Source of the DNA: Cordylochernes scorpioides
Taxonomy: Eukaryota; Arthropoda; Arachnida; Pseudoscorpiones; Chernetidae
Reading direction: 5' to 3'
Assembly (NCBI GenBank): GCA_030710605.1
Contig: CP092863.1
Coordinates: forward strand, 60,522,500 to 60,586,499
Length of the DNA: 64,000 nucleotides
Part shown: positions 31,050-31,265 of the stretch, one piece after another
How positions within the stretch are numbered: the stretch's first letter is position 1
Layout: every line of letters starts with the position of its first letter
The notes under the pieces: model-generated
What the model was told of the DNA's origin: nothing
The model's input: the letters and a program-made list of their open reading frames with translations, nothing else
The model's database searches: none
Program-made: the position numbers and the translations under genes

Positions 31050-31265
31050 CAATCCTTCTTAAAAATAGATACTTCGGCCAGTAATTTTTTTATTATCGCG
31101 AAGTTTCGACAAAAATATTTTGTCCTCGTCAGGAGCAAATAAAAATTAAAGCATTTGGCAAGGCGTTAAAAATAATTTTTATTTGTTCCTGATGAGGACA
31201 AAATATTTTTGTCGAAACGTCGAGATAATAAAAAGCTTTACTGGCCGAAGTATCTTTAATTTGAA
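31050..31265. repeat. inverted pair of family H repeats
   Basis: gatacttcggccagtaat at the left and ttactggccgaagtatct at the right are inverted ends. Each half has the core: ctgatgaggac..gtcgaaacgtcg at 31189-31224 on the plus strand, and the same on the minus strand at 31095-31133. Confidence 0.7.

Follow-up and report, generated by a model that had tools for sequence, protein, structure and literature searches.

Hammerhead-like motifs in head-to-head repeats resembling Penelope-like pseudo-LTRs in the pseudoscorpion Cordylochernes scorpioides

A hammerhead-like core in several repeat families

A 64,000-nt stretch of the genome of the pseudoscorpion Cordylochernes scorpioides (assembly GCA_030710605.1, contig CP092863.1, 60,522,500-60,586,499; hereafter the window) contains a repeat element, assigned here to family H, whose two short arms face each other and carry a motif resembling the hammerhead ribozyme. 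The core at 31189(+) reads CTGATGA-G-GAC...GTC-GAAACGTC, and its partner at 31132(-) has decayed past GAAA (GAAACTTCGCG); an earlier note on this DNA, made from the letters alone, had described the two facing copies, and both are present. Similar cores recur in families I to M, in the window and at other loci of the genome (numbered with the prefix L), and on the evidence of sequence these repeats contain what reads as a type I hammerhead core, that is, CUGANGA, GAAA and UH set between stems, with one extra base in H, I, J and L.

The hammerhead-like core is genuine, and it is more frequent than chance would provide. A scan for core and stem II (YTGANGA, a hairpin of at least 4 bp and GAAA) returned nine motifs in the window; 200 first-order Markov sequences averaged 0.57 (maximum 5), and the reversed window held one. 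In a broad set of 344,560 bases, made up of the window and 33 loci of the same genome (L004 was excluded because it is contained in L014), there were 44 such motifs, the majority belonging to families H, I, K, M and J, with family L contributing one copy (L006) and the remainder being isolated, chance-like matches. A stricter scan, which asked for a flush stem I (3 bp), YTGANGA, stem II, GAAA, a palindromic link and UH, was run on the 264,000 bases that had not been selected for the motif (the window and L015-L034), and gave 18 matches, or 22 when any link was allowed. Forty controls with permuted cores yielded none each with a palindromic link and, with any link, none in 39 and one in the other. 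Genome-wide counts of the plain pattern CTGANGA-N10-GAAAC (2911, vs 1726 for the reversed pattern) are uninformative because other repeats dominate the matches listed.

Both stem I and stem II are preserved through compensatory changes, and this covariation supports the hammerhead reading that the earlier note had proposed. There are 58 distinct instances, 56 of which were counted in seven groups (H 35, I 13, K 3, M 2, and J, J2 and L with one sequence each); the rows from L001 and L027, neither of which has a stem I pair, were left out as single-copy matches, and with both included the first stem I position is paired in 56 of 58. A MAFFT alignment of 27 cores put the 3' sides of K and M in the wrong place, and pairs were therefore counted at positions fixed by the motif. 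Stem I, which was no selection criterion, is paired at positions 1, 2 and 3 in 56, 54 and 52 of the 56 instances, using different letters from group to group (H CUC/GAG, I UGU/ACA, K ACG/CGU, M AGA/UCU, L CCC/GGG), with two flush pairs in J and only one in J2. At the level of groups 18 of 21 stem I positions pair, a figure equalled by one of 5040 reassignments, namely the true one. For stem II the corresponding result is 28 of 28, equalled by six of 5040, in a partly circular test, since the scan had itself required 4 bp or more. Stem I of family H mostly lacks pairs at positions 4 and 5 and resumes pairing at position 6, a pattern like that of an internal loop.

Individual copies vary in how well they fit. 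The core attributed to family I is found at 58592, as well as at 55973(-) and, with an imperfect stem II, at 63065(-), but at 60976, where one was proposed, GAAA is replaced by AAAA; some family I copies stand in direct tandem, as seen in self-matches of the window. For family J the proposal holds at 61622(-), which fits the hammerhead core (TTGAAGA-A-GGAC...GTCC-GAAAGCTT), but not at 1279 and 1434, because the hairpin there takes up G8 and A9, nor at 30143, which reads CTGTAGA. In the family K copy named for the window, at 45807, stem II contains mismatches and stem I is broken (by eye), and it is relatives in L014, L024 and L029 that pass the strict scan. Family M motifs, with no extra base and a six-base palindromic link, lie at L016:3583(-), L016:3740(+), L032:4068(+) and L022:9586(+). 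Head-to-head arrangements occur for K in L029 and for M in L016.

Inverted arms, target duplications and coding neighbours

In the rotifer Adineta vaga, Penelope elements have head-to-head pseudo-long terminal repeats (pLTRs), of which one may bear a tail, and target duplications of 8-10 bp (PMC3846280). Inverted pLTR-like arms, a one-sided tail and target duplications were found in a set of 20 family H copies. A genome-wide search for family H scored the 40 best places of 3592 first-look candidates. Each of the 20 copies that were fetched is a head-to-head pair and has a single-sided extension of about 37 bp (left in 12, right in 8; by eye). In 16 of the 20 the two flanks have at least 7 nt in common, compared with 11 of 184 mismatched pairings (two apparent duplicate pairs, L038/L052 and L040/L045, were excluded from this cross control, and both members of each were counted among the 20), and the duplications, at 9-12 bp, are variable in length. 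In the window, a left-hand extension is present in the copy at 12.7 kb, and none is visible in the one at 31 kb. The same right flank (GAAAAACCTTGGTAATATTGGTAACC...) runs on past the H arm in both (12746-12830 and 31220-31330), and the two may sit in a larger shared repeat.

Judged by their surroundings, all three of H, I and J have the appearance of Penelope-like pLTRs. This supports the Penelope-like origin guessed at in the earlier note, which had, however, called the repeat families unrelated, a description that does not hold for these three. A reverse transcriptase (RT) sequence adjoins arms with the motif in each case. In L021 an RT open reading frame (ORF) at 1001-1792 (RVT_1, 5e-9) is followed by an ORF at 1818-2309 with an endonuclease-like end, also present in L011 and L012, and then by a family I motif at 2440 on the same strand. 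In L010 a second RT at 5736-6425 (RVT_1, 7.5e-7, 29.5 bits, just below the cut-off of 29.6) and an endonuclease-like ORF lie upstream of a J-type core at about 7285(+), whose stem II is shorter, and an inverted J-type core lies at 5217(-). In L017 two H arms flank an RT fragment that is 83% identical to the L021 RT over 66 aa (E 5e-32). The RTs of L010, L021 and L017 probably belong to the Penelope clade. A weak endonuclease-like match in L018 (31 aa, E 0.009) has J1-type sequence about 165 nt downstream (by eye), and a third endonuclease-like piece, in L031, matches that of L010 with E 4e-21 and has no such core within 600 bases downstream. The aligned pieces have in common a pattern IY..CYVG..R..H, which may correspond to the motif known as GIY-YIG.

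Table 1. Hammerhead-like motifs and the repeats that contain them, in window coordinates
Feature	Position	Strand	Remarks
Family J1 palindrome	1189..1520		cores 1279/1434; no hammerhead fit (by eye)
Second family H locus	12629..12788		tail-like extension on left
H hammerhead-like motif	12662..12705	-	core 12699; stem I CUC/GAG
Family J3 copy (30143)	30090..30260	+	core broken, CTGTAGA (by eye)
Family H element	31067..31255		head-to-head (inverted) pair, short pLTR-like arms, 5' ends inward; opposite-strand self-match 31255-31067, 83%
Facing H motif	31094..31138	-	core at 31132; link and stem I degraded
H hammerhead-like motif	31183..31227	+	stem I UUC/GAG, CUGAUGA, extra G, stem II 7 bp, GAAA, link CG, UC
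Family K copy (45807)	45740..45900	+	stems decayed
Family I head-to-head pair	48634..48759		without 5' half of core
Family I hammerhead-like motif	55934..55979	-	core 55973; link CA, non-palindromic
Family I hairpin element	58552..58672		motif 58586-58631(+), core 58592(+); link TG, non-palindromic
Family I copy	60974..61056	+	AAAA instead of GAAA
Family J2 palindrome	61534..61760		core 61587-61628(-), extra A, stem II GGAC/GTCC, link GC, 1 flush stem I pair
Cluster of family I pieces	62718..63346		direct and inverted

The window has several further features. A repeat with the core CCGGTCCCAAGCCCGG occurs at 49658-49712(-), 59411-59465(-), 42030-42084(-) and 56926-56971(-), with sub-threshold twister-P1 scores of 41.7, 31.4, 29.5 and 23.5 bits (gathering 67.2), and also in L008, L012, L014, L017, L019, L020, L023, L024, L027 and L034. 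Long hairpins at 30382-30541, 21665-21755 and 27864-27965, which have sub-threshold matches to Rfam plant or animal microRNA families, are probably foldback repeats. The sequence at 61120-61320(+) is presumably coding and appears to us to resemble exons of myosin VI, and an uninterrupted reading frame of 603 aa at 6497-8308(-) encodes a protein that appears to resemble one derived from a hAT-type transposase.

Core geometry and competing readings

We consider it rather probable, on sequence grounds, that H, I and J are Penelope-like pLTRs, each with a minimal type I hammerhead, belonging to elements that encode RT and endonuclease. The pLTRs, often paired head-to-head with little sequence between them, would each encode the ribozyme on the sense strand. 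Once a pLTR had been transcribed, stem I would form from the sequences flanking the core and stem II from the hairpin, with stem III arising between two copies through their self-complementary links, either in one tandem transcript or between two molecules. The RNA would then be cut after UH (in family I, for example, GUC^ACACAC); the extra base after A9 would probably slow cutting, and the Penelope protein may assist, by analogy with a lizard element (PMC11167929). The RT and endonuclease would act in trans on the short H elements, and template jumps during copying would produce the head-to-head arms, the one-sided tail and the target duplications.

The core falls into two geometries. The extra base between the core and the hairpin, which the earlier note had remarked upon in H and I, is there in both and also in J, J2 and L, and is absent from K and M. 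The link is of two bases in H, I, J, J2 and L, most commonly CG or GC; in K it is CGCG and in M CCATGG. When A15 and U16 are included, each of these links is self-complementary (ACGU, AGCU, ACGCGU in K and ACCAUGGU in M), with computed duplex energies of -1.7, -2.5, -7.5 and -11.2 kcal/mol, respectively. As the two-base link has no loop, H, I, J and L have almost no stem III of their own and only a dimeric stem III is possible; any cleavage by them would probably be dimeric or assisted by protein. It is conceivable, though we would lean against it, that an extra base coupled to a two-base, loopless, self-complementary stem III defines a hammerhead subtype common to several Penelope lineages of this genome, with K and M, which have longer palindromes, lacking the extra base. 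The coupling is seen across seven groups only and may reflect shared descent.

A number of observations weigh against a working ribozyme in these pLTRs. The extra base and the near-absent intramolecular stem III are joined by the result of the covariance-model search, the other form of support that the earlier note had looked to alongside covariation: no Rfam hammerhead model matches the window at gathering score or at E up to 10. H, I, L and M copies searched alongside two K copies of L029 likewise gave no Rfam hammerhead match, and the K copies themselves gave sub-threshold matches to Hammerhead_HH9 (26.1 and 24.1 bits, gathering 52; E 0.022 and 0.094). When single segments were folded without constraints, the full hammerhead pairing did not come out in every case; family I formed stem II alone, and core bases of H paired elsewhere. 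The link is other than CG in 7 of 13 family I instances. Among 46 H arms from 23 copies, which were picked as matches to the window copy and are biased toward intact ones, the second link base differs in eight and the closing base of stem II varies in five, unlike what strict constraint on a palindromic link and on stem II would give. On the side of element identity, no coding neighbour was found for K and M, and the endonuclease-like pieces have no convincing match in Pfam, NCBIfam or PDB.

A cut RNA might also have left its ends in the genome, and for family I the record is mixed. Four of 117 BLAST starts fall at the predicted cut +1, another position having six. A 102-bp insertion at L014:4179-4280 (duplication 12-13 bp, by eye) consists of two facing arms that both start at family I +1 with eight A between them. 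Among 78 occurrences of the post-cut segment four break exactly at +1, two of these being the arms of that insertion. Two facing post-cut segments lie within 30 bases of each other at 733 places in the genome, vs none for the reversed pattern; in the 50 of these places that were listed, 9 of 100 arm ends are at the cut, with 14 at four and 11 at ten bases upstream, so that there is no clear peak at the predicted site.

These results leave a substantial, if lesser, chance that H, I, J and L are Penelope pLTRs that are no longer or never were catalytic, in which the core has been kept by recent amplification of a few sources or by another role of the pLTR (promoter or template structure). The extra base, the loopless link, the lack of an Rfam match and the absence of a clear peak of arm ends at the cut site all suit such an account, as does the behaviour of PAc, a Poseidon element of Anolis carolinensis whose hammerhead is dispensable for insertion in vitro (PMC11167929). 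It accords less well with the stem I covariation between families or with the distribution of changes in the 46 H arms, where the catalytic letters are kept in 38 and variation is concentrated at N7 (12 arms, as against three or fewer for each other core letter), at sites of the stem II loop (18 and 6) and at the two bases past proximal stem I (17 and 10). An extra core base, moreover, is reported to have weakened a viroid hammerhead and not to have abolished its activity (PMC11014351).

Two readings dispense with Penelope altogether. Family H, as a high-copy palindrome of about 200 bp with target duplications, recalls DNA foldback elements or miniature inverted-repeat transposable elements (MITEs) moved by a transposase, with the core incidental in the terminal repeats; this is very improbable, given duplications that vary between 9 and 12 bp, a terminal extension on one side only and arms that enclose or adjoin RT or endonuclease-like fragments. 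Slightly less remote, and still improbable, is an identity as animal retrozymes, in which short non-coding units carrying type I hammerheads propagate by way of circular RNA. Short repeats with such motifs in an animal genome would suit this, and the retrozymes of axolotl, which are short repeats with a weak helix III, cut better as dimers (PMC7229834). Retrozymes are, however, tandem non-coding units that give rise to circular RNA, whereas the H copies examined are head-to-head, not head-to-tail, with a one-sided tail (some family I copies are in direct tandem as well), and RT or endonuclease-like neighbours accompany I, J and one H copy. Penelope-like pLTRs with a minimal hammerhead remain the reading that we favour.

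Relation to known hammerheads and significance

Minimal hammerheads in Penelope-like elements have reportedly been described by Cervera and De la Pena in 2014 and by Lunse, Weinberg and Breaker in 2017, the title of the latter reportedly announcing small hammerhead variants that cleave as dimers. Hammerheads of Penelope elements are accordingly already published, and the repeats described here would be a further member of that class. A core with one additional nucleotide was reportedly noted by De la Pena and Flores in 2001 in the hammerhead of chrysanthemum chlorotic mottle viroid. There the extra nucleotide lies between A9 and stem II and stem III is a full helix; the likeness is in the extra core nucleotide, the difference that the host is a viroid RNA. 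In the Penelope hammerheads, like the repeats here, the type I core lies inside the pLTR and helix III is usually absent, and type I motifs of viroids and newt act as dimers (PMC6155905).

The closest functional comparison is with PAc, whose hammerhead cuts in vitro only with its own protein, while hammerhead mutants still insert in vitro (PMC11167929); the repeats in C. scorpioides are, by contrast, known from sequence. The cautious reading is therefore of a role in RNA processing and not in integration itself. In PAc the start codon is positioned at stem II (PMC11167929), which suggests that the base following A9 may be extra there too. An ATG in the motif was also considered as the start of the Penelope ORF in family I, as in PAc, and was rejected, the L021 frame running into a stop in the tail (by eye). 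Literature searches listed no paper describing miniature Penelope elements that consist of two pLTRs, which does not show that there is none.

One genome thus holds several high-copy families with recognisable hammerheads that Rfam models largely miss. The families form a natural series, with an extra base or none and a link of two, four or six bases, for asking why Penelope elements retain a ribozyme, and the same series bears on how a hammerhead nearly without stem III could work. If the extra base and the short link are interdependent, the ribozyme would be one built to work solely as a dimer or with its protein. On the same condition, the many short head-to-head H copies would be a Penelope counterpart of MITEs, mobilised in trans by means of a ribozyme-bearing pLTR pair.
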